Positions 4,898 through 38,255 of a DNA stretch of 64,000 bases are shown piece by piece. Positions within the stretch are counted from its first letter, which is position 1. The number at the start of each line of letters is the position of its first letter. Origin of the DNA: Acetatifactor sp. (GTDB taxonomy: Bacteria; Bacillota; Clostridia; Lachnospirales; Lachnospiraceae); NCBI GenBank assembly GCA_016290775.1, contig JAEEVF010000013.1:42248-106247 (forward strand). Reading direction: 5' to 3'. The notes under the pieces were generated by a model. It was not told the origin of the DNA and ran no database searches. It worked only from the letters and a program-made list of their open reading frames with translations. The translations under genes and the position numbers were made by a program.

Positions 4898-4926
4898 GTG
4901 CCAATGGGGACGGTTCTTTTTGGCAC
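4898..4926. repeat. GTGCC palindromic repeat, single unit (GTGCCAATGGGGACGGTTCTTTTTGGCAC)
   Basis: Read directly; starts 6 nt after a stop codon, ends 11 nt before the next ATG. Confidence 0.95.
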
Positions 4927-4936
4927 GGGAGAAGGT

Positions 4937-5554
4937 ATGACGATGGTGATCAAGGAAGAGATAGGCGGAATAGAGATCGTTTGCGAGACCGGGAATTATT
5001 ATTTCTCGCCGAAGGGTGTTGACCGGGGCACGCGGCTGATGCTGGAGACGGTGCCAATCCTGGAAGGCGATAAGGTGCTGGATCTTGGCTGCGGGTATGG
5101 CGTGGTTGCGATCTACGCCGGCAAGAAGGTCGGCGGGGATCACGTTGTCGCCTGCGACGTTTTAGAGGAGGCCGTGGCGCTCACGCGGGAGAACCTTTCG
5201 CGGAACGAGATCGAAGGTGCGAAGGTCCTGCAAAGCGACGGACTAAAGAGCATTGAGGATCGAGATTTTACATTGATCTTAAGCAATCCGCCTTACCACA
5301 CGGATTTTTCGGTGGCGAAGGGCTTTATCGAGGATGGTTTTCGGAAGCTTGCGGTCGGCGGCAGAATGGCCCTTGTCACGAAACGGCTGGACTGGTACCG
5401 CAACAAAATGAAATCGACATTTGGAGGCGTAAAGGTGGTCGAGGCGGAAGAATATTATATCTTCGTCAGCGAGAAAAGGGCACCGTACGTGCACAAAGAA
5501 AAGAAAAACCAGCAGATCATGTCGAAAAAACTACAAAGAAAACATAAAAAATAA
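4937..5554 (+). CDS. Class I SAM methyltransferase, RsmC/MTS-like
   Basis: VLDLGCGYGVVAIYAGK motif I and ILSNPPYH (NPPY) motif; ATG 4937 with SD GGGAGAAGGT. Confidence 0.82.
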   Translation: MTMVIKEEIGGIEIVCETGNYYFSPKGVDRGTRLMLETVPILEGDKVLDLGCGYGVVAIYAGKKVGGDHVVACDVLEEAVALTRENLSRNEIEGAKVLQSDGLKSIEDRDFTLILSNPPYHTDFSVAKGFIEDGFRKLAVGGRMALVTKRLDWYRNKMKSTFGGVKVVEAEEYYIFVSEKRAPYVHKEKKNQQIMSKKLQRKHKK

Positions 5555-5607
5555 GAAAAGGAGACTATCAAAATGGTGATGTTCGTATGGACTTGGAATA
5601 TCTGATC

Positions 5608-5637
5608 GCATGAAATCGTTGATCAATGGTTTCATGC
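5608..5637 (+). other. Intergenic hairpin GCATGAAATC...GGTTTCATGC
   Basis: 10-bp stem with one G-U, 10-nt loop, between two co-directional genes; no T-tract. Confidence 0.5.
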
Positions 5638-5686
5638 CAACGTAGCAAATCAACATGAAAACATTTGAATCAAAAGGAGAAAAATC

Positions 5687-6823
5687 ATGATATTTCAAGA
5701 TAACATTGTAAAAGAATATTTGAAGAACGTATATTTCATCACGGGAACGCCCTGTGGCGGCAAGACGACCGTTTCACGGGCGCTGAGCAAGATGTATGGG
5801 ATCCCGGTATATGACATCGACGAGCGCTTTGAGGAGCATCAGAAGATGTCCGATGCGGAGCATCAGCCCGCAATGAACAAGCAATTCAAGGACGCGGACG
5901 AGTTTTTTGGACGGAGCGTTGAGGAGTACAAGGCATGGCTTTTGCAGAACACGAGGGAGCAGCTGGATTTCGTCATTTTGGACCTGATCCGTTTGTCGAA
6001 GGACGGACCGATCCTTTGCGATTGTCACCTGACCTTGGAGCAGGCAGACATGCTGAGTGACCCTTCCAGAGTTGCCTTTATGTTAAAGGAGCCGAAGGAC
6101 CTGGTGGAGGATTACTGCAACAGGCCGGATCACCAAGGCTTTAGCAACTTTATTCACAGCGCGACGGACTATGAAAAGGCAAAGGCAACCTGTAACGAGA
6201 CGTTAATGTCGCTCAACGTCAAGCACTATCACGACGTGAAAAACAGCAAGTTTTTCTGGCTGGAGCGCGACAATAACAGGAGCGTGGAGGACACCGCGGA
6301 GCTTGTGGCAAAGCACTTTGGACTGGAAGGCGCTTCGGAACCAGGCAAGCCATTCGAGGAGGATTTCACGAAGGCTGGGCTTCAGATACGGAAGGTTGAG
6401 AAGGATACGCCCCTTGCAGAAGAGCTCCTGCACTTCGTGGAGAACTGCTCCTGGACGGAGGTGCGAGATCATATCGCAGGCTTGATCCGAGACTGGAGGT
6501 TTACGGATTGGGAGACCATGTTCGCGGCTGTTCTGGATGGGAAAATCGTTGGAATGACCTCACTTTTGAAGGAGGATTATTATCCTCTGCCGAAGATCTT
6601 CCCGTGGGTATCCTGCGTCTTTGTGGAAAAGGAATACAGAGGTAAGCGCATCAGTGAAAAGCTGATTGCAAGGGCCAATGAGTACGCCAAGGCGTTAGGA
6701 TTTGACAAGACCTATATTCCAACGGAATTTTGCGGGTTTTATGAAAAATATGGCTATTCTTACGTGAAGGATATCGTCAACTATGGAGGCGGCACGGATC
6801 GTCTTTATGTGAAGGAACTCTAA
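5687..6823 (+). CDS. Fusion: P-loop kinase-like domain (N-term) plus GNAT acetyltransferase (C-term)
   Basis: FITGTPCGGKTTVSRAL Walker A; C-terminal SCVFVEKEYRGKRISEKLIARANEYAKALGFDKTYIPTEFCGFYEKYGYSYV. Confidence 0.8.
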   Translation: MIFQDNIVKEYLKNVYFITGTPCGGKTTVSRALSKMYGIPVYDIDERFEEHQKMSDAEHQPAMNKQFKDADEFFGRSVEEYKAWLLQNTREQLDFVILDLIRLSKDGPILCDCHLTLEQADMLSDPSRVAFMLKEPKDLVEDYCNRPDHQGFSNFIHSATDYEKAKATCNETLMSLNVKHYHDVKNSKFFWLERDNNRSVEDTAELVAKHFGLEGASEPGKPFEEDFTKAGLQIRKVEKDTPLAEELLHFVENCSWTEVRDHIAGLIRDWRFTDWETMFAAVLDGKIVGMTSLLKEDYYPLPKIFPWVSCVFVEKEYRGKRISEKLIARANEYAKALGFDKTYIPTEFCGFYEKYGYSYVKDIVNYGGGTDRLYVKEL

Positions 6824-6845
6824 TATGTAAGGCAAAGTCATTAAT

Positions 6846-6906
6846 GTGCCAACGGGGACGGTTCTTTTTGGCACAAACGTGCCAAAAAGAACCGTCCCCA
6901 ATGGCA
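6846..6906. repeat. GTGCC repeat, inverted pair
   Basis: GTGCCAACGGGGACGGTTCTTTTTGGCAC-AAAC-GTGCCAAAAAGAACCGTCCCCAATGGCAC. Confidence 0.95.
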
Positions 6907-6931
6907 CATTGGTACAAAAGGTGGTGATTGT

Positions 6932-7753
6932 TTGAATTATTTTATCGAGGGAATTCAGGGTGCGGGTAAGAGCACCTTGGTAAATCGCCTCGCGGAGAAG
7001 TTGCCGGATGATCACTTGTTCCGCGAAGGAGATTATAATCCGGTGGAGCTGGCATGGTGCTCTTATCTGACCAAGGAACAATATGAAGCAGTGCTCAGTA
7101 AGTACGCAGTGATCGCAGACGAGATCAAGGCAAATACCACCGTCGAGCGTGTTTTTACGGGTTCGGGCGTGAGCGCTGACAGGAATGCGGAGGATCGTTA
7201 TGTTCTTACGTACACAAGGATCATAACGGATCTTCCCGGATTTCATAAGGATCTTGAGCAGTACGAGATTTACAATGGGCGCGTTAGCAGGGAGACCTTT
7301 GACAGGATCATTTTTTCCAGATATGCGAAGTGGCACGGCGATAATCAGGTTTTCGAGTGCTCCATCTTTCAAAACATTGTGGAGAATCAGATCCTGTTTT
7401 ATGAGATGTCGGACGAGGAAATCGTAGAGTTTTATAAGGAGCTGGCGCAGGTGATCCAGGTGGAAAATTATAAAATTCTTTATTTGGACGTACCCTGGGT
7501 GGCAGGAGCGCTTGAAATCATCCGTAAGGAGCGAGTGGACGCACAGGGACATGAAATGTGGTTTCCGCTGATGCTGGGATTTCTTGAGGATTGTCCCTAT
7601 GGGAAAAAGCATGGCCTCAAGGGCTTTGACGGACTGGTAAGGCATCTGGAGCACAGGAAAAATCTGGAGCTTCGGATCCTGCGGGAGGTGTTCCCAGAGC
7701 ATGCGGTCATCTTACCTTCGAAGGAGTATGACCTGGAAACCGTGAATTTGTAA
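6932..7753 (+). CDS. P-loop NTPase / kinase-like protein
   Basis: YFIEGIQGAGKSTLVNRLAEKL Walker A; TTG start with upstream AAAGGTGGTG. Confidence 0.75.
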   Translation: MNYFIEGIQGAGKSTLVNRLAEKLPDDHLFREGDYNPVELAWCSYLTKEQYEAVLSKYAVIADEIKANTTVERVFTGSGVSADRNAEDRYVLTYTRIITDLPGFHKDLEQYEIYNGRVSRETFDRIIFSRYAKWHGDNQVFECSIFQNIVENQILFYEMSDEEIVEFYKELAQVIQVENYKILYLDVPWVAGALEIIRKERVDAQGHEMWFPLMLGFLEDCPYGKKHGLKGFDGLVRHLEHRKNLELRILREVFPEHAVILPSKEYDLETVNL

Positions 7754-7773
7754 GTGGGTAGGGGGAATGTGGA

Positions 7774-8805
7774 TTGATAAATGTTTTAGAAAAGGCAAAA
7801 GCCTTTTATGATTTAGAGAATTTTGAATTTGATCAAGTGGGCGGACATGACGGCGGAAGAAACCTCGTCTATGTCTGTAGAAAAAATGATGAGAAGAAAT
7901 ATGTTTTAAGGATTTCTTCGCTGGGCGACAGGACGCTGGAGGACTATGAGGCGGAGACCGAATTTGTGCATTACCTCGCAGAACATGGTGCGCCCGTGGC
8001 GAATGTGATCTCATCGAAGAAGGGGAAGCTTGTAGAGAGTTTTGTCATGAAGTCCGAAGAAAGAAGTACGGCGAACGCAGATGGCGAAGCATGCTATGTA
8101 TCCTTGTTTGCATATGCCAAAGGAATGCTTCTTAGCGAGAACGGATATCGTTACAGAGAGGGTGCAGCGCTCACCGAGCTTTTTTTCAACATGGGAAAGA
8201 CCATCGGAGCGATCCACAGGCTTTCGAAGCAATATCAGCCCAAGCACAAAAGACAGCAGTATTTTGACAAGTACAACATGGAATATATCAGTAAGGTCAT
8301 CCCCAGAGACTTCGCGGAGTTGAAAGATGCCATTGCAAATCGCCTGGAAAAGTTCCAGACGCTGCCGATGGATCCGGAGAGCTATGGGCTCGTACATTTT
8401 GATTTTAGCGATGGAAATTATCACGTGGACTACAGTGACGGTGCAATTACGACCTTTGATTTTGATAATTGCATCTACTGCTGGTACATGTTTGACCTTG
8501 CCCATCTTTGGACCCACGGCGTCGGCTGGTGCATGTGGATCGAGGACGGAGAAGAGCGCCTTAAGTTCATGAAGGAGTACTATTTTGCGACGGTCCTTGA
8601 GGGGTACCGGAGTGAGACGAGCCTTCCTGAAAACCTGCTTGAGCAGCTGCAGCTTTTCATTGACATGGTACTGATCGAAGGGATTGTGGACGAGTTTGAG
8701 TGTGCCGCAAGGGAAGGCGAGGAAATCGATCCTGAGGACATAGAGGATTACGTAAAATGCCTGGTGGAGGATATCCCCTACGCAGGCGTTGGAGTGGATT
8801 TATAA
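7774..8805 (+). CDS. Phosphotransferase enzyme family (APH-like) protein
   Basis: YGLVHFDFSDGNYHVDYSDGAITTFDFDNCIYCWYMFDLAHLW, HxDxxxxN and DFDN motifs. Confidence 0.82.
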   Translation: MINVLEKAKAFYDLENFEFDQVGGHDGGRNLVYVCRKNDEKKYVLRISSLGDRTLEDYEAETEFVHYLAEHGAPVANVISSKKGKLVESFVMKSEERSTANADGEACYVSLFAYAKGMLLSENGYRYREGAALTELFFNMGKTIGAIHRLSKQYQPKHKRQQYFDKYNMEYISKVIPRDFAELKDAIANRLEKFQTLPMDPESYGLVHFDFSDGNYHVDYSDGAITTFDFDNCIYCWYMFDLAHLWTHGVGWCMWIEDGEERLKFMKEYYFATVLEGYRSETSLPENLLEQLQLFIDMVLIEGIVDEFECAAREGEEIDPEDIEDYVKCLVEDIPYAGVGVDL

Positions 8806-8844
8806 AGCTTGAACTCCTTTCATAAATGGGGAAATGCAAAAAAC

Positions 8845-8913
8845 ATGGCGCCGCGTGGAAAAGAAAGGCGCAGGGAGACATGACGCCACAAGGAAAAGAA
8901 GGCGCAGGGAGAC
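8845..8913. repeat. Two tandem copies (35/34 bp) ending in GGCGCAGGGAGAC just before the next start codon
   Basis: atggcgccgcgtggaaaagaaaggcgcagggagac / atgacgccacaaggaaaagaaggcgcagggagac. Confidence 0.85.
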
Positions 8914-9750
8914 GTGACGGAGGAACATAACGTGACTGAGAAGGTACGGTTTTTGGAAGAAATTGGAGCGAATGGGCACGTTACATTGAATGTGATGCAG
9001 TATGACGGTTGGCTTTTGCGGTTTTCAAATGGATACACCAGCAGGGCCAATTCCGTTAGCATGCTTTATCCGTCCACGAGACCCGTGGAGGAGAAAATCA
9101 CGTACTGTGAAAAATGTTATGCAAGCCAGGGCTTGCCGACGATCTTTAAGGTGACGGATCTTGATAAGGAGTTTTCAGACTTGCTTGCAAGGCGTGGTTA
9201 TGAGATCGTAACGCCGTCGGATGTCATGGAGGTAGTCGCTTGGGACGCCGAGGATGAAACTTCTTGTCATGAAAACGCCAGGCAGGCGAAGCACGAAAAC
9301 GCTTGCCGCGAAAATGCCGGGACAGAGAATGGCGGACGCGGTGAGGTGCATTGCGAGTTCTCTTACGAACCGTCCGCGTGGCTTCCCCACTATTTTGCGT
9401 TTGAAAACATCACCGATGAAACAAAGAAAAATACCTTTCAAAAGATGCTTTCGAGGGTGATGATTGATGCGTCATATGGTATACTTTATTATGAGAATGA
9501 GCCAGTAGCATGTGCTTCCGTTGCGGTGGAGCATGGTTATGCGCTCTTGCATAACGTAATCGTTACCTCTGCCATGCGGGGGAAGGGACTTGGTGAAAGG
9601 CTCTGCCGTGCAATGATCGCAAAGGCAAAAGAGATGGGGGCGGATCACGTATTCCTGCAGGTGGTTCAGTCAAACCAGGTGGCGATGAACTTATATAAAA
9701 AGCTAGGTTTTCAAAAGGACTATACTTATTGGTATATGAAGAAGGCGTAA
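8914..9750 (+). CDS. GNAT family N-acetyltransferase
   Basis: LLHNVIVTSAMRGKGLGERLCRAMIAKAKEMGADHVFLQVVQSNQVAMNLYKKLGFQKDYTYWYM. Confidence 0.85.
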   Translation: MTEEHNVTEKVRFLEEIGANGHVTLNVMQYDGWLLRFSNGYTSRANSVSMLYPSTRPVEEKITYCEKCYASQGLPTIFKVTDLDKEFSDLLARRGYEIVTPSDVMEVVAWDAEDETSCHENARQAKHENACRENAGTENGGRGEVHCEFSYEPSAWLPHYFAFENITDETKKNTFQKMLSRVMIDASYGILYYENEPVACASVAVEHGYALLHNVIVTSAMRGKGLGERLCRAMIAKAKEMGADHVFLQVVQSNQVAMNLYKKLGFQKDYTYWYMKKA

Positions 9751-9802
9751 GCCATTTAGAATCGTCGCAGGCGACTTGCCTAGGCGCATTGGGGGACGGC
9801 AA

Positions 9803-10378
9803 ATGTATTATCACGCATCAAAGACGGCGGGGATTAAGCAATTAGAGCCGCGGATCTCAAATCATAACGTACCGCTCATCTATTTTTCGAGAAAGCGGGA
9901 AAACGTGCTGGTTTACTTAAGCAATGCCGTTGAAAAGTATTGCAGGGAGCAGGGCTTTGCGTACGACGGGCCGTGGTCGAAATGGGGTCCGTATGGGTTT
10001 GAAAAGGATGGGAGATTACGGCTTGAGGAGTATTATCCAAATGCCTTGGAAAGCACCTATCAAGGGGTTTCCGGATATATCTATGTGGCGGCGGAGGTCC
10101 AGGATTCTGGATTTGCTTTGCAGATCCCGGATGCGGTGGCGAGTGAAATTCCCGTGGACGTGACAGGCTCTGAATTTGTTGCGGATGCGTATGAGGAGCT
10201 GCTTCGCGCAGAGCGGGAGGGGCTGATCACAATTCTGCGATATAAGGATTTAACGCTGCAAAAGAAGGAGTGGATCCGAAAGACCATACTGCTGGAATAT
10301 GCGGAGGCCAAGGATCATCCGGAATATCAATTCTTTTTGCGGGGAACATTCCAGGAACTGAGACAAGACGAAAGGTGA
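9803..10378 (+). CDS. Uncharacterised protein
   Basis: 192 aa from ATG 9803 (MYYHASKTAGIKQLEPRISNHNVPLIYFSRKRENVLVYLSNAVEKYC). Confidence 0.65.
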   Translation: MYYHASKTAGIKQLEPRISNHNVPLIYFSRKRENVLVYLSNAVEKYCREQGFAYDGPWSKWGPYGFEKDGRLRLEEYYPNALESTYQGVSGYIYVAAEVQDSGFALQIPDAVASEIPVDVTGSEFVADAYEELLRAEREGLITILRYKDLTLQKKEWIRKTILLEYAEAKDHPEYQFFLRGTFQELRQDER

Positions 10379-10383
10379 AGAAC

Positions 10384-11559
10384 ATGATTATCAAGAGACT
10401 GGAAGGAAAAGAGAGATTTGACGCATATATGACAGCCGTTTATTGCTTTCACATGCGGGTGGAGGATCCGGAGGCGGAGCGGGCTGTTCATGAGGCCGAT
10501 ACGAAAGAGGATTGGGGTGCCTTTGATGAAAACGGCACTCTGATGGGCAGGATTATCAATCACAAGTTTGATTTTTACTTGGATGGAAAGACCGTGAGAT
10601 GCGGGGGCATCGGCGGAGTCGCAACGCTTCCGGAGTATCGGAATAAGGGCGTTGTGAAGGCAATCTTCAGGGAACTTTTGCCCGCGGCATATAAGGACGG
10701 CGAGGTGCTTTCGGCGCTGTATCCCTTCAAGCATGAGTTCTATCGTAAGCAGGGATATGAGGTCGTGCCGGCATGGAATGATTATTCCTTAACGCCGGGA
10801 CTGCTCTGCAACTATCGCTTTGACGGAGAGGTTTGCAAGTACAACATGGGCGATCCCGTGACGGATTTCATGACGGTGTACAACGCTTTCGCGCCGCAGT
10901 TTAACATGGCCTTGGCACGCACGGAGGCGTGTATGCAAGATCACCTGAAGGTGGACAAGCCTTATATTGACAGGAAGTTTTCCTATGTGATGAAGCAAGG
11001 CGGAAAGCCCATCGCGTATATCATTTTCACGGACATCAGGCATGATCCCGCAGCCATTTTGCAGGTGGAAGAATGTGCCTGGACGGGCCGTGAGGGCTTC
11101 CATGCCATCCTTGGATTTCTTGCAAGATTTGAGGCGGATTACGGCACGATCAAGCTGACTTTGCCGAAGGGAATTGACCTGCTTCGCGTGGTGCAGTCGC
11201 CCCTTGCATATGACATCGAAAAGATCCCGCAGCAGAACTTCATGGTCAGGGTGATCAATGCGAAAAAGCTGTTAGAGGCAATTTACAAGCCCGCTGACTG
11301 TGACTTTACGATCAAGGTGAGTGACGAGCTGATCGCGGAAAATAACGCGACCTATCGCGTGCAGGCCGATGGTGTTAAGGCAAGCAGAAAAGAGAAAGCA
11401 GACATGGAATTAAATGAGCGCGCACTTGCACAGCTGGCAGTAGGTTGCCTGAATCTGGATGAGGCCATGCTTCGCAAGGACGTGACCATAAACGCGAAAG
11501 AAGAGATGCTCCGTCGCGTATTTGTGGAGAAAAAGATTTTTGTCGGAGAACATTTTTAA
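10384..11559 (+). CDS. Eis-like GNAT N-acetyltransferase
   Basis: GGIGGVATLPEYRNKGVVKAIFRELLPAAYKDGEVLSALYPFKHEFYRKQGYEVVP, plus long C-terminal region typical of Eis-like proteins. Confidence 0.82.
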   Translation: MIIKRLEGKERFDAYMTAVYCFHMRVEDPEAERAVHEADTKEDWGAFDENGTLMGRIINHKFDFYLDGKTVRCGGIGGVATLPEYRNKGVVKAIFRELLPAAYKDGEVLSALYPFKHEFYRKQGYEVVPAWNDYSLTPGLLCNYRFDGEVCKYNMGDPVTDFMTVYNAFAPQFNMALARTEACMQDHLKVDKPYIDRKFSYVMKQGGKPIAYIIFTDIRHDPAAILQVEECAWTGREGFHAILGFLARFEADYGTIKLTLPKGIDLLRVVQSPLAYDIEKIPQQNFMVRVINAKKLLEAIYKPADCDFTIKVSDELIAENNATYRVQADGVKASRKEKADMELNERALAQLAVGCLNLDEAMLRKDVTINAKEEMLRRVFVEKKIFVGEHF

Positions 11560-11585
11560 GCAAATCACAAAAGGGGGATAAAAAC

Positions 11586-12122
11586 ATGAAATTATTAGTG
11601 ATCGACGTTCAAAAAGGAATTACGGACGAGGAATTATATGCATATGACAGCTTTGTTGCCAACGTTAAGACATTGATCGAGACCGCAAGAAAGAACGGTG
11701 TCGAGATCATATACGTCCAGCATGATGACGGACCTGGATCCGGATTCACCTTTGGAGATGAAGCCTTTGAGATTTCGGAGCTGTTTGCGCCGAAGGAAGG
11801 CGAAAAGATTTTCGTAAAAGAGATCAACAGCGCCTTTGGAAATAAGGAGTTTGCGGCATATCTGGAGAGCCAGGGTGACAAGGATCTGATGATCATTGGG
11901 CTGCAGACGAATTTTTGCATCGATGCGACCATCAAGTCGGCCTTTGAAAGAGGCTATAAGGTTTACGTGCCGGATGGAGCAAATTCTACGTTCGACAATG
12001 ATTATATGACTGGCGAGACGACCTGTAAGTATTACAACGATTTTATTTGGCCGAGTCGCTTTGTGGACAGCATTTACATGGAGGATGCCATTGCCCTGCT
12101 GGAGGGAAAGAGCATCGAATGA
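11586..12122 (+). CDS. Cysteine hydrolase, isochorismatase-like family
   Basis: LLVIDVQKGIT...IIGLQTNFCIDATIKSAFERGYKVYVPDGANSTF. Confidence 0.85.
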   Translation: MKLLVIDVQKGITDEELYAYDSFVANVKTLIETARKNGVEIIYVQHDDGPGSGFTFGDEAFEISELFAPKEGEKIFVKEINSAFGNKEFAAYLESQGDKDLMIIGLQTNFCIDATIKSAFERGYKVYVPDGANSTFDNDYMTGETTCKYYNDFIWPSRFVDSIYMEDAIALLEGKSIE

Positions 12123-12144
12123 AGATTTTTGAGAGGTAAGAGAA

Positions 12145-12945
12145 ATGGAAAAATACATTGAAGGCAATAAGGCCGCTTGGGAGGAAGCCTTTGAAAACAG
12201 GGATGCTTCCTGGGGAGCGGACGTCGTAGAAAAAATCCAGAAGGAAGAATATGCATTCTTCAATCAGGAGACGGCGGACATACTTAAGTCGATCAACACG
12301 GAGGGCATGGTGATCGGCCAGTTTTGCTGTAATAACGGTCGTGAGCTCCTTGCCCTTGTGAAAAGCGGAAAGGCAAAGAAGGGCGTCGGCTTTGACATTG
12401 CTGAGAATCAGGTGGCGTTTGCCAACGAAAAGGCAAAGGAACTAAACCTGCCCTGTGAATTTGAGGCTGCCAATATCTATGACATTGATGACAGGCACAA
12501 GGAAGAGTTTGACTTGGCGCTCATCACCATAGGCGCGCTCTGCTGGTTTGAGGATCTGGATAAGTTCTTTGCCATCGTGGCAAAGTGCATGAAGCCTGGT
12601 GCGATCATTGTGATCAATGAGCAGCACCCGTGCACGAACATGCTTGCAACCGCGGGGGATGAGCCCTATTCTCCGGACCACAAGAAGGAGTGCCACTATT
12701 CCTATTTTGAACATAAGTGGGAAAGCAACGGAGGCATGTACTACATGACTCAGAAGTGCTACAAGTCCAAGACGTTTACCGACTATACCCATTCCATGTC
12801 GGAGATCATGACGGGAATGTGCAATAACGGGATCGTCATTACGGGAATGCAGGAGTTTGACCATGACCTTAGCGGAGGCTTTGGCGAGGTCGATCAGAGC
12901 GGATTCCCGCTTTCCATGATCATCAAGGGAAGAAAAGACAGGTAA
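12145..12945 (+). CDS. Class I SAM-dependent methyltransferase
   Basis: VIGQFCCNNGRELLALVKSGKAKKGVGFDIAENQVAFANEKAKELNLPCEF motif region. Confidence 0.78.
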   Translation: MEKYIEGNKAAWEEAFENRDASWGADVVEKIQKEEYAFFNQETADILKSINTEGMVIGQFCCNNGRELLALVKSGKAKKGVGFDIAENQVAFANEKAKELNLPCEFEAANIYDIDDRHKEEFDLALITIGALCWFEDLDKFFAIVAKCMKPGAIIVINEQHPCTNMLATAGDEPYSPDHKKECHYSYFEHKWESNGGMYYMTQKCYKSKTFTDYTHSMSEIMTGMCNNGIVITGMQEFDHDLSGGFGEVDQSGFPLSMIIKGRKDR

Positions 12946-12979
12946 TGATCGTGACAAACCATTAGAAAAGGACGAAGAG

Positions 12980-14410: not shown

Positions 14411-14435
14411 CGCATCGAAACGAGTGAGGTACAAT

Positions 14436-27512: not shown

Positions 27513-27535
27513 GTCACGATACAAGGAAGAAGATC

Positions 27536-28357: not shown

Positions 28358-28358
28358 C

Positions 28359-28420: not shown

Positions 28421-28436
28421 GTGATAAGGAGATTGC

Positions 28437-28874: not shown

Positions 28875-28877
28875 GAT

Positions 28878-30197
28878 TTGATAGAAAGTGTGGTAAGAGT
28901 GATAAAAGTGATTTTGTTAAATGGGCCGTCGTCGGCCGGCAAGTCAACGCTCTCTGGGGAATTGCAGCGAAGGCTTGCGGGCATGGGCGTGGAGGCCGAG
29001 ATCATATCCATTGACGATTATATGATCACGGATCCGAAGGAGACCATTTACGAAGATGATATTTATGAGATCATGCCGGCCATGTGCGAAGGGATGAAAA
29101 ACGTACTGGGGAAGGGCAGGTCGGTGATCGTAGACCATGCGATCACAAGCGAGCGGATTTTCGAGGCGTTCATGGATGCCGCGAAGGGTTACGAAGTGCT
29201 GACGGTGAAGGTGACGTGTGATCTGGAAATCCTTCTAAGGAGGGAGCAGGAGCGGGGCGACAGATGCCCGGGGTCCGCGGAGGCCTCCCTGCAGTATTTG
29301 TGGCCGAAGGAAGGATATGATCTGTGCGTTGACAGCGGAAAGTGTTCTGCGGCGGAAAATGCGGAGATAATTATGGATGCGATAGAAACGTGCCAAAAAG
29401 AACCGTCCAAGGCTTGGAATGCGAAGCATTCCATGATCCCGACTGAAAGGAGGGACGTGACGAAGGTCACGCCAGTGGCAGAAACGTGCCAAAAAGAACC
29501 GTCCCCAGTGGCAGAAACGTGCCAAAAAGAACCGTCCCCAGTGGCACGTTTGGAGAAGATGGGTGAGTTCTTCGATGCGAGGCTTGAGGGCTATGAGGAG
29601 CATCAGCTCACGACGATTGATGACGCGGGTGAGTTTTACCCGTTTACGGCGGGGTGTTTGCCGCAAGATGCGGGGGCCTGCATTCTTGACTTGGGCTGTG
29701 GTACGGGCCTTGAGCTGGGTTATTACTTTGAGGTTGTACCCACTGCGAAGGTCACGGGTGTTGACCTGGCAGCAGGCATGTTGGATGCGCTGAAAAAGAA
29801 GTTCCCTGAAAAAGCATTAAATTTGATCGTGGGATCGTATTTTGACGTGCCGTTTGAGGAAGGCGCATTTGATGCGGCGGTGTCCGTAGAGTCACTTCAC
29901 CATTTCACGAAAGAGGAGAAGATCTCTTTGTATGAAAAGGTGCGGAAAGCCTTGAAGGCGGAAGGATATTTTATCCTGACCGATTATTTTGCAACTTCTG
30001 AGGAAGAGGAGCGGTTCCACCGTGGCGAGTTGCTCAGGCTTCGGAAGGAACAAGGCCTTCGCGAGGATGAGTTTTATCATTACGACACGCCGCTGACCGT
30101 GGAGCACGAAACGGAGGCACTGCTGGCGGCGGGGTTCGCCCAGGTTCAAGTGCTGAAGAACTGGGGCCACACCTACACGCTGAAGGCGGCTAGATAA
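28878..30197 (+). CDS. Continuous ORF: CPT-like P-loop kinase domain, repeat-encoded linker, SAM methyltransferase domain
   Basis: VILLNGPSSAGKSTLSGEL ... TCQKEPSKAWNAKHSMIPTERRDVTKVTPVAETCQKEPSPVAETCQKEPSPVA ... ACILDLGCGTGLELGYYF. Confidence 0.75.
   Translation: MIESVVRVIKVILLNGPSSAGKSTLSGELQRRLAGMGVEAEIISIDDYMITDPKETIYEDDIYEIMPAMCEGMKNVLGKGRSVIVDHAITSERIFEAFMDAAKGYEVLTVKVTCDLEILLRREQERGDRCPGSAEASLQYLWPKEGYDLCVDSGKCSAAENAEIIMDAIETCQKEPSKAWNAKHSMIPTERRDVTKVTPVAETCQKEPSPVAETCQKEPSPVARLEKMGEFFDARLEGYEEHQLTTIDDAGEFYPFTAGCLPQDAGACILDLGCGTGLELGYYFEVVPTAKVTGVDLAAGMLDALKKKFPEKALNLIVGSYFDVPFEEGAFDAAVSVESLHHFTKEEKISLYEKVRKALKAEGYFILTDYFATSEEEERFHRGELLRLRKEQGLREDEFYHYDTPLTVEHETEALLAAGFAQVQVLKNWGHTYTLKAAR
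29390..29547. repeat. GTGCC repeats in coding frame: one extended unit plus two simple 33-nt tandem units
   Basis: Read directly inside the 28878..30197 ORF. Confidence 0.95.
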
Positions 30198-30210
30198 TCG
30201 AGGGGGGCTT

Positions 30211-30642
30211 ATGGCGAAGAAAAACTATAATTTGGGGCAGTTGGACAACATTGAATTTGTGGTGATCTTTACAAGATATCAGGACAAGTGGGTGTATTCC
30301 TGGCACAAGAAAAGGCAGAGTTTTGAGCATCCCGGCGGGCACGTGGAGGCAGGCGAAACCGCAATGCAGGCGGCAAGGCGCGAACTTTATGAAGAGACTG
30401 GCATCACGGATTGCAGGATGATCCCGCTTTGGGATTACGAGCAGATTTGGGATGACGGGATCGGGAGAAATAACGGTCGCGTTTACGTTGCCATCGCCAA
30501 TGCGCTGGGCCAGCTTCCGGAAAGCGAGATGAGCAAGATCGAGCTCTTTGACGGCGTTCCCGAGAATTATACCTATAGCAGGGAAGAAGAGCAGAAGGAC
30601 TTAGAGACGATCTTGAAAATGCTGAAGGCGTGGGAGGAGTAG
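30211..30642 (+). CDS. NUDIX hydrolase
   Basis: GGHVEAGETAMQAARRELYEETGI Nudix box. Confidence 0.9.
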   Translation: MAKKNYNLGQLDNIEFVVIFTRYQDKWVYSWHKKRQSFEHPGGHVEAGETAMQAARRELYEETGITDCRMIPLWDYEQIWDDGIGRNNGRVYVAIANALGQLPESEMSKIELFDGVPENYTYSREEEQKDLETILKMLKAWEE

Positions 30643-30644
30643 GG

Positions 30645-31217
30645 ATGACGAAGTTTTTGTTTGTCAGACACGGTGAGCCAGACTATGCAAGCGTCGGAGA
30701 TTGGTCGAGATTCCCGATGGGTACGAATTTCGCGGGCTTGTCGGAGCGAGGCGCGGAGCAGATCAAAAACAGTTGTGCGAAGCTGGCGGAATATCCCGTC
30801 GAACTGATCGTGTCTTCGCCATATACAAGAGCCCTGCAGGGTGCTGCGATCATGGCGCGTGAGCTTCAGGTCGACGTGGCGGTGGAGCGTGACTTGCATG
30901 AATGGCAGGTGGACGTGACATACTCCATTACGGGAGATGAGAATTTGGTGGCCCTGTGTCAGGAGCGAGACAGGATGCAAGGCGTTTATCCTAAGGGCGA
31001 AACCAAAGTATGGGAAAGCACGGAGATTGTTCGGAACAGGGTGTTGGCGTGTCTTGAAAAGTATAAGAACCACAAGTGTGTTGTTGTGGCGGGACATGCC
31101 ATCATGATGCAGGCCGTGTTTGGCATCAGCACGGCGATAGAATATGGCGAGATCATGAAACTGGAATGGAATGAGTCAAAAAGAACCGTCCCCAGTGGCA
31201 TGGAACTGGAATTGTAA
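30645..31217 (+). CDS. Histidine phosphatase family protein; C-terminal tail from repeat
   Basis: FLFVRHGEPDYA...IVSSPYTRALQGA...VVVAGHAIMM; ends ESKRTVPSGMELEL*. Confidence 0.87.
   Translation: MTKFLFVRHGEPDYASVGDWSRFPMGTNFAGLSERGAEQIKNSCAKLAEYPVELIVSSPYTRALQGAAIMARELQVDVAVERDLHEWQVDVTYSITGDENLVALCQERDRMQGVYPKGETKVWESTEIVRNRVLACLEKYKNHKCVVVAGHAIMMQAVFGISTAIEYGEIMKLEWNESKRTVPSGMELEL
31173..31202. repeat. GTGCC repeat, single unit with ATGAGTC left end, inside CDS
   Basis: GAGTCAAAAAGAACCGTCCCCAGTGGCATG. Confidence 0.9.
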
Positions 31218-31232
31218 GATAAGGAGGGCAGT

Positions 31233-31730
31233 ATGGAGTATTGGGATCTGTATGATGCGGAGAGGAAGCCGCTGGGGCGGACGCATCTGCGTGGGGAAAA
31301 GTTTGAAGAGGGTGAGTATTACGTAAGCTGTGAGATCTGGGTCATGAATTCCAAGGGGGAGTTTTTGACGACGCAGCGGCACCCTGCGAAGAAGGCGGGA
31401 AATCAGTGGGAGTTTGTTGGCGGCGGCACGCTTGCGGGCGAGACGACGACGGCATCCTCTGTGAGGGAACTTTTCGAGGAGACGGGGATCGTGGCCGCGG
31501 AAAGCGAGTTGAAGCTGATCGCCACCTACGCGCACAAGAATTATTTCTTGGATGTTTATCTGCTGAAAAAGGACGTGGCAATTGATGATCTGGTGCTATG
31601 CCCTGAGGAGACGGTGGCGGCGAAATGGGTAGGTGACGAGGAAATCCGCAGGATGATCGAAGCGGGCGAGTTCGTATATTCCGTCGGGCAGCGGTATGGC
31701 ATGTATGAAAAACTGGCGAGAGAATTATAA
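31233..31730 (+). CDS. NUDIX hydrolase
   Basis: GGGTLAGETTTASSVRELFEETGI Nudix box. Confidence 0.88.
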   Translation: MEYWDLYDAERKPLGRTHLRGEKFEEGEYYVSCEIWVMNSKGEFLTTQRHPAKKAGNQWEFVGGGTLAGETTTASSVRELFEETGIVAAESELKLIATYAHKNYFLDVYLLKKDVAIDDLVLCPEETVAAKWVGDEEIRRMIEAGEFVYSVGQRYGMYEKLAREL

Positions 31731-31781
31731 GCAGAAAGGGGTTGCGGCGAAGACATATGCCGTGACTTGGAGGATGGAAGG

Positions 31782-32720
31782 TTGACGGAAAGATTTGCAA
31801 TCATATCGGACATACATGGGAATCATCCGGCGCTGGTGAAGGTGTTGGAGGATATAAAGAGTCGGGGAATCGAGCAGTTTATCATTGCGGGTGATTATTG
31901 TTTGAGCGGCGCCTGGCCGAATGACTGTATTCAGACGTTGAAGGAAATTCCGAAGAAATGGATCATTCAGGGTAATGAAGAAAGGTACCTCGAGAATCTG
32001 ATCGGGAAGGATCAGAGCACTTGGACCGACGGCCAGATGCAGATCTCGTATTGGAATTATCGGAATATCGAAAAGGAGAATCTGGATTATCTTTTGGCGT
32101 TACCGCACACGGCAGAGTTTGAATGCAATGGCGTGAAGGTTCATATGGCGCATTCCTTGGCTGATTTTATTGGGGTGCGTGAATCTGCTGATTCGGTGGC
32201 CGTTTCGGAAAGATATGCGAAGGTGCAGACGACGCCGGAAATGGTACGGAAGGACATCCATGCAATGTTGGATGCGGACGCGGATTTTCAGGAGAAAGTG
32301 GCGGCGCTGGAAGAGGGCGTATATATCTTCGGGCACACGCATGTGCAGTGGAGTTACAAGGTTCCTCGCAAGAACATGTTGCTGATCAATCCAGGTTCCT
32401 GCGGTTTGCCGCTGGATGCGATCACGGACAGCGTGCCGTACGCGATCCTCACGATCGCGGAGAACGGAGAGGCTTCGGTGGAGGAGATACGGGTGCCGTT
32501 TTCCATGGCGGATTACATTGAGGAGCTCAGGAAGACGACGCAGTACGTGGAGGCAAACGTGTGGTGCAAGGTGATCTTCAAAGAGCTTTTGTCGGCGAAG
32601 GAGCACATGTACTACTTCTTGCGGTATGCGGAAGAATATGCCAAAAGGATTGGCGACGAAAGAAGGCCTTACGCCGTGGAAACATGGGAAAAGGCGTACG
32701 AAGAATGGAGTAAGTCGTGA
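31782..32720 (+). CDS. Metallophosphoesterase
   Basis: FAIISDIHGNHPAL, GNEERY, FGHTHVQ motifs; TTG start likely after GGAGGATGG. Confidence 0.87.
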   Translation: MTERFAIISDIHGNHPALVKVLEDIKSRGIEQFIIAGDYCLSGAWPNDCIQTLKEIPKKWIIQGNEERYLENLIGKDQSTWTDGQMQISYWNYRNIEKENLDYLLALPHTAEFECNGVKVHMAHSLADFIGVRESADSVAVSERYAKVQTTPEMVRKDIHAMLDADADFQEKVAALEEGVYIFGHTHVQWSYKVPRKNMLLINPGSCGLPLDAITDSVPYAILTIAENGEASVEEIRVPFSMADYIEELRKTTQYVEANVWCKVIFKELLSAKEHMYYFLRYAEEYAKRIGDERRPYAVETWEKAYEEWSKS

Positions 32721-33682
32721 AAGAAAGCAGGTTTGTGACATATACGGAAGATGACAGGAATATTGTGAGGGCCGGGATCGAAGGCGTGAGGGAGATTTTG
32801 CTGGGCAGTGATGCGGATCAAAAGAGAAGCATGTTGTTTTGCCTGGACTGGTTTATGGATCCTTATTACGGGCAGGACATTTCCGCTTTCAAGGAGGAAT
32901 TGATCGAGCTTTTGCAGCAGGTCATCGTGGCGCATGGCGAGGAATTGGACGTCAAGGAAGATGCGCTGCAGCTGCTTGCGGCTTATGAGTTCGGGCCTTT
33001 TCCGATCTTGGAGGAGCATTTTGAAGAGCTCGAAGAGGAGATCAAGCCTGACGCAAAGTACGTGATCAACATGCACCGCGAATTTGGCGTGAGAACGCTC
33101 ATTTTCCTTGGGTCGTCCGTTACTTACGGAGAGGCGGCCGGCGGCATATCCTTCGCGGATTTGCTGTGCAAGAAGTTTGGGTACGAAATGGTCAAGGAAG
33201 CGGTGTCGGGGACGACGCTTGTGGATGACGGGCCGGACTCCTACGTCAGCAGGCTCAAGACGATCGATGCAGAGTCTGCAAGCCTTCTTGTGTGCCAGCT
33301 GTCCACAAATGATGCTACTTGTATGAAGCCCCTCGGGAGCGTTGATAAGAGCAGGGAGTTGGAGTCGTTTGACACGAAAACCGTGGCCGGTGCGATCGAA
33401 TATATCATCGCATATGCGCGTGTGAAATGGGGCTGTCCGGTGACGTTTTACACGAGTCCGCAGTATGAGTCGAAGGAATATGCCGAGATGGTGGAGCTGC
33501 TAAAGAAGATCGCGAAAAAGTGGGACATCGAGCTCATCAACCTATGGGACGATAAGGCATTTAACAAGGTCACTGCGGAGGAACGCGCCAGATTCATGGC
33601 GGATCCTATCCATCCGACGCTGGAGGGCTACAAGGAATGGTGGTTGCCGTACTTCGAGAAGAAGATACCTAGTTTGTTTTGA
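32717..33682 (+). CDS. SGNH/GDSL hydrolase-like protein
   Basis: LIFLGSSVTYGEAAGG and MADPIHPTLEGYKEW. Confidence 0.8.
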   Translation: MKESRFVTYTEDDRNIVRAGIEGVREILLGSDADQKRSMLFCLDWFMDPYYGQDISAFKEELIELLQQVIVAHGEELDVKEDALQLLAAYEFGPFPILEEHFEELEEEIKPDAKYVINMHREFGVRTLIFLGSSVTYGEAAGGISFADLLCKKFGYEMVKEAVSGTTLVDDGPDSYVSRLKTIDAESASLLVCQLSTNDATCMKPLGSVDKSRELESFDTKTVAGAIEYIIAYARVKWGCPVTFYTSPQYESKEYAEMVELLKKIAKKWDIELINLWDDKAFNKVTAEERARFMADPIHPTLEGYKEWWLPYFEKKIPSLF

Positions 33683-33685
33683 AAT

Positions 33686-33922
33686 GTGCCAAAAGAACCG
33701 TCCAAGGCTTGGAATGCGGAGCATTCCATGATCCCGACTGAAAGGAAGGACGTGACGAAGGTCACGCCATTGGCAGAAATGTGCCAAAAAGAACCGTCCA
33801 AGGCTTGGAATGCGGAGCATTCCATGATCCCGACTGAAAGGAGGGACGTGACGAAGGTCACGCCCATTGGCACATGATCCCGACCGCAGGGAGGGACGTG
33901 ACGAAGGTCACGCCATTGGCAC
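33686..33922. repeat. GTGCC repeats: two extended units plus a 5'-truncated extended unit
   Basis: Read directly; each contains GGAATGCGGAGCATTCC and GTGACGAAGGTCAC. Confidence 0.95.
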
Positions 33923-33934
33923 GAGGAGGAAAAA

Positions 33935-34414
33935 ATGATCAATTTACGGAAGGTTGAGGCGAAGGACAAGGACTTGCTCTTTAGCATCAATCAAAAATAT
34001 CTATATGAGATGACGAACTTTTACGAGGATGAGATGGACGAGCACGGGAATTATTCCTACGGGCATTTCGAGGAATATTTCACCGACCCGCGCCGGATCG
34101 CGTATTTTATCCAGGACGATGAGGTTTTGGTGGGATTTGCGATGCTTTGTCCCTACTCGAACATCGGGCAGGATCCGGATTATATCATGGCGGAGTTTAC
34201 GATCTTTCCGTCCTATCGCAGAAAGCATTTTGCGCTGGATGCGGCCAGGCTTATACTGGCAAAGCATCCTGGGAATTGGGAGATCAAATACAACGAGAAG
34301 AATCCTAAGGCAAAGAAGCTTTGGACCATGGTGACGGAGCCGTTTCATCCGCAGGTGGTGCACCTGAACGATGAGGAAACGGTGTTTGTGTTTGTGAATG
34401 ACGGGGTTAGGTGA
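33935..34414 (+). CDS. GNAT family N-acetyltransferase
   Basis: IMAEFTIFPSYRRKHFALDAARLILAKHPGNWEIKYNEKNPKAKKLW. Confidence 0.8.
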   Translation: MINLRKVEAKDKDLLFSINQKYLYEMTNFYEDEMDEHGNYSYGHFEEYFTDPRRIAYFIQDDEVLVGFAMLCPYSNIGQDPDYIMAEFTIFPSYRRKHFALDAARLILAKHPGNWEIKYNEKNPKAKKLWTMVTEPFHPQVVHLNDEETVFVFVNDGVR

Positions 34415-34447
34415 CGGTGCCTTACGCCCGAAAGAAAGTAGGCCTAA

Positions 34448-35818
34448 ATGAAACTAATGTTTGGTTACGGTGAAGCGGACTTGACGCCGGATTGGTCGGC
34501 GCCGTTGGTGGGCTTCTACCGTGAGGACAATTACTCGAAGGGGGTTTTAGCTCCCTTGCTTGCGCAGGTGTCCGTGTGGGGAGAAGAGAGCCGCGCCGCA
34601 CTGATCACGATCGACAGTATTGGCTTTACCAAGGAATTGTCGAATGATCTGCGGGATCAGGTGGCGGAGCGGATCGGCGCTTCGCGTGAGAATATTATGC
34701 TGTGTTTTTCGCACACGCATGCCGCACCGGACGGTGACGCGGGTGATGGGTATTTTGAACTTGTCTGCGAGCGGATTATGATGGCGCTGGAGACGGCCCT
34801 GGAAGGCATGGAAGAAGTGCAGACGGGGTGCGTTAATGCGCGGGCAAAGATCGGTGTGAACAGGCGGTTCGCAAGTGACCTTGTGGACGACAGGGTCGGG
34901 ATCCTTGAGGTGCGTGAACTTCGCGAGGGCGAGGCTGGCGAATTGCAAGGTACGGCGCGGAAGCTCTTGTTGTTGCGGGTGACGGCGCACGGGAATGTGT
35001 TGAAGGCGGATAATCTTATGATCTCGCCGGATTATTTCGGAAACGTGCGCGAAACCTTGCAGAAGAAATATGGCTGTCCGGTGATGCTGATCCAGGGCGC
35101 TGCCGGGAATGTCGCACCGAAGTATTTTTGCTCCAAGAACACGCCAGTGGACGCAAGGGGACCTAAGTTTGTAAGGTCGGAGAATGCGTTGCAGCTGATG
35201 GCGGATGAGGTGCTGCGAAGCGTGGAAGAGGCGCTTAGGAATCGCGGGACGATTACGGCAAGCGGCATGCAGGCAAGCGGCATACAGGCAGGCGACATGC
35301 AGGCAAGCGGCACAAGCGTTGGCAATGAAAACGCCGATGGAGGTGCGTCCCTGCAAGCCTATTCTCGCTGGATCGCGTTACGGGCGCAGGTACCGAGCGC
35401 GGAGCGAGCGGATATGATTGCGAAAGAGGCAATGGCAGAGTGCGGGATCGATGGTGCGGAGTGGCTTGCAGAGGTGAAAAGGCTGCGCGCGCAGGGGATC
35501 ACCGTGCAGGAAGAGCAGGCAGAGGTGCAGTATTTCAGGATCGGAGCTTTTTGCCTTTGCGGCATGGCCTACGAGCTGATGACCGAGTTTGCGCTTGAGG
35601 CGGCGGAGCGCCTGAAGGATGAGTTCTTTTACTTGAATGGCTATGCCAACGGGTGCCTATCCTACTTCCCGACCAAGGAGGAGTTTGACCTTGGCGGATA
35701 TGAGGTGTATTGGTCGCTGCTGATCTATTACAAGTACTTTGGCAGGGTGTACCCGTTCGAGCGGGAAGAAGCCGACAGGGTCGTGGAGTTCGTGGTGAAA
35801 CATGCTCCAAGAGGATGA
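34448..35818 (+). CDS. Neutral/alkaline ceramidase N-terminal domain-like protein
   Basis: FGYGEADLTPDWSAPLVGFY...MLCFSHTHAAPDGDAGDGYFE...LIQGAAGNVAP. Confidence 0.72.
   Translation: MKLMFGYGEADLTPDWSAPLVGFYREDNYSKGVLAPLLAQVSVWGEESRAALITIDSIGFTKELSNDLRDQVAERIGASRENIMLCFSHTHAAPDGDAGDGYFELVCERIMMALETALEGMEEVQTGCVNARAKIGVNRRFASDLVDDRVGILEVRELREGEAGELQGTARKLLLLRVTAHGNVLKADNLMISPDYFGNVRETLQKKYGCPVMLIQGAAGNVAPKYFCSKNTPVDARGPKFVRSENALQLMADEVLRSVEEALRNRGTITASGMQASGIQAGDMQASGTSVGNENADGGASLQAYSRWIALRAQVPSAERADMIAKEAMAECGIDGAEWLAEVKRLRAQGITVQEEQAEVQYFRIGAFCLCGMAYELMTEFALEAAERLKDEFFYLNGYANGCLSYFPTKEEFDLGGYEVYWSLLIYYKYFGRVYPFEREEADRVVEFVVKHAPRG
35258..35317. repeat. Four in-frame 15-nt repeats (ASGMQ ASGIQ AGDMQ ASGTS)
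   Basis: gcaagcggcatgcag/gcaagcggcatacag/gcaggcgacatgcag/gcaagcggcacaagc. Confidence 0.9.
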
Positions 35819-35910
35819 GTCAAAAAGAACACGTCCAAGGCATGGAATGCGTAGCATTCCATGATCCCGACCGCAGGGAGGGACGTGACGAAGGTCACGC
35901 CCAGTGGCAC
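35817..35910. repeat. GTGCC extended repeat with ATGAGTC left end
   Basis: GAGTCAAAAAGAACACGTCCAAGGCATGGAATGCGTAGCATTCC...GTGACGAAGGTCACGCCCAGTGGCAC. Confidence 0.93.
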
Positions 35911-35940
35911 GAAGGTCGCGTGGTTTACAGGAGGAATTAG

Positions 35941-36789
35941 ATGAATACAGTTTGGTCAGATTACGTTCAGGGAATCAAAACATTATATTACAGCAGAAAA
36001 CTGAGATTTGACGACTTGTTTTTTGCGCAGTATCAAGGGCTTTTTGGACTGGATCGGGACAAGGAAATGAAGATATTGGAGATCGGGTGCGGTCCTGGAG
36101 CATTGGCTGAGGCTTTGCGCAGATGGTATCCCAAGGCCAAGATCACGGCGATCGACAGAGATAGTCAGTTCATTGCGTTTGCGCGAAAGAACATTGCGGG
36201 AGTGGAGTTTTGTGAGGGAGACGCGACGGCGCTGCCCTTCGCGGATAACACCTTTGACGTGACCATTTCCAATACCGTTCAGGAGCACGTGGAGCCCAAG
36301 TCCTTTTGGGGAGAGCAGCTTCGAGTGTTAAAACCCGGCGGTATATGCCTTTGCCTCTCGGCAAGAAAAGGGGTAAGCGTGCAGGCACCGTGTCTCGCGG
36401 AGACTGCGGAAGAGAAAGCGTTTTGGGAGAAGACGCCGTCGTGGGAGGAAACACGGGATGCATATCAGGTGTGTCAGTATCCCATGACAGAGGCGGAAAT
36501 CCCTGCGTCCATGGAAGCCAACGGATTTTGTGAAGTGGCGACGGGATATGCAGTGATCGACTTGACGCCTGACAACCCCAGGTTTTCTGCAGAGTTGGCC
36601 GAGGCCATGATCGAAGCGCAAAGACAGACAAGCCTGGAAGCGATCGAATCCGCGCATTTGGATGGCGATGAAGCGGTCGTGGCGGCGGTGAACGCGAAAT
36701 ATGATGAGAGGATCAGGTTGTACCGACAGGGGAAAAAGCAATGGGATACGGCCACCTCAGTGACGATGGTCATTCGCGGTAGGAAATAA
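35941..36789 (+). CDS. Class I SAM-dependent methyltransferase
   Basis: MKILEIGCGPGALAEALRRWYPKAKITAIDRD...FDVTISNTVQEHV...LRVLKPGGI. Confidence 0.88.
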   Translation: MNTVWSDYVQGIKTLYYSRKLRFDDLFFAQYQGLFGLDRDKEMKILEIGCGPGALAEALRRWYPKAKITAIDRDSQFIAFARKNIAGVEFCEGDATALPFADNTFDVTISNTVQEHVEPKSFWGEQLRVLKPGGICLCLSARKGVSVQAPCLAETAEEKAFWEKTPSWEETRDAYQVCQYPMTEAEIPASMEANGFCEVATGYAVIDLTPDNPRFSAELAEAMIEAQRQTSLEAIESAHLDGDEAVVAAVNAKYDERIRLYRQGKKQWDTATSVTMVIRGRK

Positions 36790-36799
36790 ATTGAAAAAT

Positions 36800-37057
36800 G
36801 TGCCAAAAAGAACACGTCCAAGGCTTGGAATGCGTAGCATTCCATGATCCCGACCGCAGGGAGGGACGTGACGAAGGTCACGTCCAGTGGCACAAATGTG
36901 CCAAAAAGAACACGCCCAAGGCTTGGAATGCGTAGCATTCCATGATCCCGACCGCAGGGAGGGACGTGACGAAGGTCACGCCCAGTGGCACAAATGTGCC
37001 AAAAAGAACCGTCCCCATTGGCACAAATGTGCCAAAAAGAACCGTCCCCATTGGCAC
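36800..37057. repeat. GTGCC repeats: two extended units followed by two simple units, all same orientation
   Basis: Read directly. Confidence 0.95.
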
Positions 37058-37165
37058 AAAAATAAGGCCCGAAAAGGAAAAATATAGTTAGTATATGAAC
37101 AAAATTTATGGTATAATAATATTTTATGAAATAAGGCAAAATGGCTTGGGAGGGGGAGTATTGTC

Positions 37166-38167
37166 GTGAGCAATGACCAATTAAGGTATTTATATTTTGG
37201 AGCATATCGTTTCGAAGAGAAGGAGGACGGCTGGCTGCAGGCGTTCCAGTACTCGAAGGCGCAGGAGGATTACTTCAAGGAGGCCTTTGATTTCTGGTAT
37301 GAGAGATGCACGGCGTCTACCGCAAAGACCATTGAATTTGTGACGGAGGCCACGAAGGTGTCCTTTGATTTCAAGCTGATCTGGATGGGCTCGCCGGATT
37401 CCTTTGAGCTGGCGGTAGACGGTCAGATCACAAAGATCGCTTACGTGATGGATTTCTTGAAAGAAGGCATGCCGGAGCCCGATTTTTCAAAGGGATTTCC
37501 GGGATGGAACCTCCCGAAGGAAGGCAAGATTGAGTGGGACATGCCGGAGGGGAAGAAGTCAGTCGTGATCTATCTGCCCGCAGACGCCACGGTGCTTTTG
37601 CGGAACTTTGCGTTGAACGCGGCCGCAGAAAGACCTGTGAAGAATGAAAAGGTGCTTTGGCTGGGCGATTCCATCACCCAGGGCTTTGGTCCGCTCCGTT
37701 CCGGACAAACTTATGTCTCGGTGGCTAACCGACTGCTGAATTACGACATTATTAATCAAGGGATCGGCGGATATATCTACGACAAAAACTCCCTGATGAA
37801 GATGGAGGGCTATCAGCCCGACAAGATCATCGTGGCGCTCGGAACCAATCAATACGGGGATGAGACCATGGAACGCGTCGAGGAGTACTATGAAACCTTG
37901 ACCGGGATTTATGGCAATGAGATCCCGATCCTTTGCATCTCACCCGTTTGGCGCGGCGACCAGCCAGAGGGGTATGAGAAGTTCGTGGATTTCTGCGAGA
38001 ACATCAAGAAGATCGCGGGAAGCTACAAAAACGTAACTGTTGTGGATGGGTTCACGCTTGTGCCCCATCTGAAGGAATATTATCTCGACAACCTACATCC
38101 GAACTGCCTCGGGACGGAAACCTACGGCAGAAATCTTGTGGAGGTAATCCGTAAACTGGGATTTTAG
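37166..38167 (+). CDS. SGNH/GDSL hydrolase with N-terminal beta-sandwich-like region
   Basis: VLWLGDSITQGFGPLRSGQTY (GDS) and LDNLHPNCLG; GTNQYGD. Confidence 0.85.
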   Translation: MSNDQLRYLYFGAYRFEEKEDGWLQAFQYSKAQEDYFKEAFDFWYERCTASTAKTIEFVTEATKVSFDFKLIWMGSPDSFELAVDGQITKIAYVMDFLKEGMPEPDFSKGFPGWNLPKEGKIEWDMPEGKKSVVIYLPADATVLLRNFALNAAAERPVKNEKVLWLGDSITQGFGPLRSGQTYVSVANRLLNYDIINQGIGGYIYDKNSLMKMEGYQPDKIIVALGTNQYGDETMERVEEYYETLTGIYGNEIPILCISPVWRGDQPEGYEKFVDFCENIKKIAGSYKNVTVVDGFTLVPHLKEYYLDNLHPNCLGTETYGRNLVEVIRKLGF

Positions 38168-38176
38168 GTTGTGAAC

Positions 38177-38255
38177 GTGCCAATGGGGACGGTTCTTTTT
38201 GGCACGTGAGGGACCATGGCATGAACGTGCCAAAAAGAACCGTCCCCATTGGCAC
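38177..38255. repeat. GTGCC repeat, inverted pair (last copy in window)
   Basis: GTGCCAATGGGGACGGTTCTTTTTGGCAC...GTGCCAAAAAGAACCGTCCCCATTGGCAC. Confidence 0.95.

Follow-up and report, generated by a model that had tools for sequence, protein, structure and literature searches.

An enzyme gene array interspersed with GTGCC repeats

The window, a stretch of 64,000 nucleotides from Acetatifactor sp., contains a one-directional array of genes for small-molecule-modifying enzymes (GNAT, NUDIX, kinases, methyltransferases, ABC) at 2103..44514 on the plus strand, which is conserved, with turnover, in relatives. The statement of a preliminary description that all genes lie on the plus strand holds from 973 to 47338. 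The array ends beside a mecA-like gene and a prolyl-tRNA synthetase gene; gene turnover occurs genus-wide without repeats.

Palindromic GTGCC repeats occupy 15 loci in this array. A single plus-strand unit at 4898..4926 lies 6 nt past the stop codon of gene 3792-4892, and the downstream gene (4940-5554) is absent from this place in relatives. The 62-nt inverted dimer at 6846..6907, which is REPIN-like, fills its gap; four relatives have both flanking genes adjacent without the dimer, that is, an empty site. At 16338..16432 a unit is joined to an inverted dimer identical to the inverted dimer at 17757..17818; the latter lies between genes 16716-17750 and 17844-18425, an adjacency not found in relatives. 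A long-spacer dimer at 18400..18487 overlaps the 3' end of gene 17844-18425 and provides its stop codon, and a single minus-strand unit at 19076..19104 stands between genes that are adjacent in five relatives, where the repeat is absent. The dimer at 20783..20875, with a 55-nt spacer, is almost equal to its neighbour at 22360; a truncated unit and a dimer with a 54-nt spacer make up 22332..22451. Another inverted dimer (28359..28420) begins 1 nt past the stop codon of gene 27536-28357. The next four loci are on the minus strand: an in-frame cluster of one compound unit with an insert and two plain units (29390..29547) at the join of two fused genes, a single unit (31173..31201) within the 3' end of gene 30630-31217, two compound units with a ~70-nt insert plus a partial copy (33686..33930), and a compound unit (35817..35910) that overlaps the stop codon of gene 34448-35818. 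Two compound and then two plain units follow in tandem at 36800..37057, also on the minus strand, and the last locus is a dimer (38177..38255) between genes that are adjacent in five relatives. Two 33-nt direct copies, 94% identical, at 19644-19742 in the gap after gene 19120-19632 are unrelated to the GTGCC repeat.

The preliminary description had counted about 32 units at the 15 loci, and its coordinates and distances to stop codons were right. The exact 11-nt core, GGGGACGGTTC, is present in 24 copies in the window compared with a shuffle mean of 0.02, and the total is ~32-33 units when degenerate, truncated and insert-bearing ones are counted. Its list of loci stands; six units at these loci (29390, 33686, 33781, 35817, 36800 and 36898) are in fact compound, interrupted by the ~70-nt insert. 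In the whole genome (3.19 Mb) we counted 161 cores. Positional statistics were drawn from 37 genome stretches around repeats, which held 151 of the 161 cores before a small overlap was removed.

The unit, RYGTGCCANTGGGGACGGTTCTTTTTGGCACRY, is ~29 nt long. In all 151 flanks examined, GTGCC was preceded by C or T (position -1), so the element is slightly longer than the 29-mer and reads RYGTGCC...GGCACRY. Bases upstream of the RY end were weakly A/T-rich, with no clear sequence-specific target site. Inverted dimers are the prevailing arrangement, with 39 among the 151 cores examined and core spacings of 35, 50-54, 61-66 or 102-117 nt; the reverse arrangement is rare. Other units stand alone or in tandem, usually 33 nt apart. 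Dimers fold into near-perfect hairpins (-51 kcal/mol, z -12.6). The same variable dinucleotide was found in both halves of 27/39 dimers (9.6 expected, p<1e-4), and in simple dimers pairing beyond the core, into the immediate flanks, exceeded expectation. These two observations indicate that the element evolves as a hairpin. In the longer dimers the tip either is self-complementary and variable between copies, for example GTTTTG-TCCTGGGA-CAAAAC, or carries the ~70-nt insert. Spacers are shared more often between neighbouring dimers: identity exceeds 0.9 in 40% of near pairs and in 7.6% of far pairs (p=0.04 for the mean, by permutation). A search of the window with Rfam returned one tRNA and one 16S rRNA only, the repeats being without a match.

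The insert that interrupts compound units, TTGGAATGCGNAGCATTCCATGATCCCGAC..., has 29 copies in the genome. It carries two hairpins (TTGGAATGCGNAGCATTCCATGATCCCGACCG...GTGACGAAGGTCAC) and is located at the tips of dimers or within units, for example at 29390-29470 and 36800-36995 of the window. Among 61 genus genomes its core is present only in this genome (G000) and in G018, where a copy (G018:C37:21133-21152) sits within a different long inverted repeat.

The in-frame cluster at 29390-29547 is a special case. It lies in the plus-strand ORF 28878..30197, which encodes a chloramphenicol phosphotransferase-like part (aa 10-169), a repeat-encoded linker (~aa 171-223, TCQKEPSPVA...) and a methyltransferase (aa 270-367). 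The two parts are separate genes in all relatives found, and in G018 these are neighbours 48 nt apart. Here the cluster takes the place of stop codon, gap and start codon while one frame is kept, and the ORF possibly represents a natural gene fusion. Translation of the methyltransferase could still begin at an internal ATG (29559) that has a GGAG shortly before it, so the ORF may yield one fused protein or two.

The repeat-flanked Y1 transposase gene

The genome has exactly one Y1_Tnp (PF01797) gene (E 1e-11, above the Pfam cut-off), which lies outside the window at G000:C3:95730-96467 and encodes 245 aa. In the stretch that contains it (L032), the ORF (3730-4467) has repeats on both sides: a dimer upstream (3483-3544) and a unit (4470-4498) that begins 2 nt past the transposase stop codon. 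The preliminary description had named a Y1-transposase (REP/RAYT) repeat family as the alternative to gene cassettes, and a genome search for the repeat and for a recombinase flanked by it bore this out, yielding the 161 cores and this one repeat-flanked gene.

The HUH (HVH) and Tyr (RYILNNP) motifs are conserved in relatives of the transposase. The Y1 domain is followed by ~110 residues with a conserved end, RQIERLTGI; TIRYTs have an HTH/DnaA-C-like extension there, and Pfam HTH matches in the present protein were non-significant. The NCBIfam REP_Tyr_transpos equivalog model matched at E 5e-12 and 45.8 bits, under its 80-bit cut-off, and the GT[AG]G foot at the base of REPs is absent, the unit starting RYGTGCC. 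For these two reasons we do not file the protein as a classical RAYT; by its score it is a homologue, not an equivalog. We provisionally assign it to the TIRYT type, on the strength of its C-terminal extension and of the GGGGAC repeats on either side. A structure model built from two sequences (pLDDT 54) was too poor for fold comparison, and a PDB sequence search with the transposase found no meaningful relative.

TIRYTs, with their TIRtrons, are likewise Y1 HUH transposases (~245 aa) that have a C-terminal extension and inverted repeats of the GGGGAC type on both sides, and their repeats also occur as single, dimeric and grouped copies. In contrast to them, the repeats here are high-copy with well-formed hairpin dimers, and their core, GGGGACGG, fits 7/8 positions (one base off) of the published flanking-repeat consensus GGGGWSAS (Di Nocera et al. 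2013, PMC3733652). The REPIN/BIME and RAYT systems of Pseudomonas and E. coli (Bertels and Rainey 2011, PMC3116915; Nunvar et al. 2010, PMC2817692) resemble the present one in having a single repeat-flanked transposase, inverted dimers, symmetric variation, intergenic location and >100 copies; they differ in unit sequence, in transposase subfamily and in the GTAG/GGAG foot, which is absent here. Some published subclasses and TIRYTs are likewise without a GT[AG]G foot. For TnpA-Y1 subclass 2.1, the counterpart of the TIRYTs, no REP-like sequences were found and further analysis was called for (Quentin et al. 2018, PMC6006769), which makes the abundance of the present repeats, beside a putative member, noteworthy. 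We regard the system as a REP/REPIN-like family, of a kind already known, whose transposase is probably of the TIRYT type, and this particular family as newly described. It offers a well-resolved Lachnospiraceae case of a TIRYT-type transposase with REP-like repeat abundance, a link left open by the 2018 classification.

Homologues of the transposase occur in ten of 138 genus genomes, and the close ones only in G099 (70%) and G067 (67%). A scan of genome contigs, with the window's own record outside it, gave three transposase relatives. Cores number 161 in G000, 132 in G099 and 7 in G067, where two of them flank the transposase; no other genus genome scanned exceeds 14. Repeat copy number follows the transposase: only G099, with the 70% relative, is also amplified among those scanned. 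Uncultured Lachnospiraceae RUG596 has a transposase identical to the G099 one, and, judged from relatives, the source habitat is probably rumen-type. Across the family, flanking inverted repeats with a GGGAC core were found at 22/38 homologue loci, compared with 2.3 when flanks of different loci were paired as a control. The stems alongside a 69% relative of the transposase read GTGACA/TGTCAC, and alongside 35-45% relatives the sequence is GGGGACGGTGTTTTTGGC. A change of transposase goes with a change in both stems and inner sequence: RAYT and repeat diverge together.

Position relative to genes and comparison with relatives

The gaps that hold repeat clusters in the 37 stretches were co-oriented (50), convergent (18) or divergent (4). 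Cluster density was very uneven across contigs, with at least 5 clusters on the 893-kb contig C7 and at least 14 on the 106-kb contig C14. Among the 19 clusters in co-oriented gaps that leave 60 nt or more to spare, 13 began at most 14 nt past the stop codon, where 2.1 were expected (p<5e-5); genes were called here with a simple in-house caller, not taken from annotation. The window cluster at 4898 was counted twice, in overlapping stretches, and with 10 nt spare falls outside the 19. In the window alone, 4/8 clusters lay at most 14 nt from the stop codon and 4.1 were expected (p=0.71). The proposal that the repeats hug stop codons therefore holds genome-wide; in the window alone their closeness is indistinguishable from random placement in short gaps. 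The genuine, genome-wide 3'-end placement is a known REP property: REPs adjoin (<20 bp) the 3' ends of genes, and their ends can supply stop codons (PMC3733652). GTAG/CGTC REPs in particular lie at most ~15-20 nt from the 3' ends of genes, in gaps that are convergent or co-oriented, and can supply stops (Di Nocera et al. 2013; RepRanger, PMC12306157); the repeats here belong to another sequence family.

An equivalent one-directional, tightly spaced array is found in G110, G011, G078, G018, G067 and G117. Its orthologues are 60-94% identical in amino acid sequence, with gene gain, loss and some reordering, and these loci contain 0 to 2 exact cores per 40-60 kb stretch. In G000, repeats have been added at three conserved adjacencies, the gaps after 6823, 19035 and 38167. 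At the gap 38167|38284, G110, G078 and G011 have a short hairpin only, CGCGTC-ATTA-GACGCG or TGTGTC-ATTA-GACACA, with compensatory differences, which may be a remnant of the repeat or a pre-existing hairpin used as target; the gap in G067 is 34 nt with neither hairpin nor repeat, and that in G117 holds a single unit with other stems.

The preliminary description had asked whether breakpoints of gene gain and loss fall inside the repeats. Comparing species, not strains, we found the adjacency conserved at 3/13 repeat junctions and at 10/31 repeat-free junctions (Fisher p=0.72; p=0.50 with the 31173 unit added), and this low-power test gave no enrichment of repeats at rearranged junctions and no association with broken synteny. 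One gene has clearly been relocated: 17844-18425 has repeats on both sides in G000 and follows gene 19120-19632 in relatives. Its former site, the gap 19632-19783, is without the GTGCC repeat.

These results indicate that the array is older than the repeats and evolves independently of them, that the repeats do not shuffle the genes between them, and that the cassette-like layout is ordinary behaviour of REP elements over an older gene row.

A probable REP/REPIN-like family and competing readings

Very probably, the GTGCC repeats form a non-autonomous REP/REPIN-like family and depend for mobilisation, in trans, on the single Y1 (HUH) transposase, a RAYT of the TIRYT kind. The transposase would recognise the hairpin ends in single-stranded DNA, and dimers would be copied or moved into new places by it, as has been proposed for TnpA-REP. 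Copies would persist where they are least harmful, directly 3' of coding sequence, and the hairpins formed there at mRNA 3' ends may affect stability or termination. Genes would not be carried; an older gene row with short gaps would simply collect repeats. We infer mobilisation from the association with the transposase and from copy number, not from transposition events seen. A point against this reading is G067, which has a close transposase yet just 7 cores. A more elaborate version is offered tentatively and is rather doubtful: that a Y1 transposase of the TIRYT type, from a subclass reported to be without REPs, is behind the amplification of REPINs whose hairpin tips vary and sometimes include foreign DNA, for instance the ~70-nt insert. 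This cargo would be copied together with the dimer, and insertion would be directed to 3' gene ends, occasionally fusing neighbours.

It is unlikely that the repeats are primarily functional 3'-end RNA elements (stabilisers of mRNA, terminators or hairpins that stall ribosomes), maintained by selection and only secondarily mobile. Such a role would agree with starts at most 14 nt from stop codons far above expectation, with the strong RNA hairpins and paired changes of the dimers and with the compensatory differences in the hairpin at 38167|38284 in relatives; E. coli REPs at most 15 nt from the stop codon act on translation, according to a statement in PMC12306157 that cites earlier work. However, close relatives with the same genes are nearly repeat-free, copy number tracks the transposase, contigs are very unequal in repeat content, and paired change is equally expected from hairpin transposition intermediates.

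Homologous recombination between copies, spreading repeats and reordering genes, is an improbable account. The sharing of spacers by neighbouring dimers and the repeats that bound the relocated gene would fit it, but recombination creates no new sites, relatives rearrange without these repeats, and breakpoints show no enrichment.

The least probable reading by far, that the repeats are recombination sites at which modules of RBS, ORF and 3' palindrome move together as in integrons, draws on the one-directional array with its short gaps, the varying gene order between species, the repeats on both sides of the sole clearly relocated gene and the identical dimers that bracket gene 16716-17750, and is largely refuted, since relatives show equal one-directional turnover while nearly repeat-free, broken adjacencies are not associated with repeats, at least 3 repeat junctions are adjacencies conserved in relatives, the former site of the relocated gene lacks the repeat, and the majority of clusters are found beyond the window, many of them in gaps between convergent genes. 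The likeness to integron cassettes (attC) is superficial and limited to the layout, in which genes share one direction and end in a 3' palindrome; there are no attC features here and the palindromes are unrelated to gene gain and loss. The preliminary description had seen no integrase in the window, and in the genome no integron integrase passed the cut-off: the best TIGR02249 match, on another contig, scored 61 bits against a cut-off of 265. The findings taken together settle the cassette question for the window locus.

G000 and G099 set against their repeat-poor sister species form a natural comparison for what drives bursts and for settling at stop codons. New genes always enter the window array in one orientation. 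A second one-directional array of similar enzymes (GNAT, NUDIX, kinase, methyltransferase) is located at G000:C3:70000-89999 (L034).
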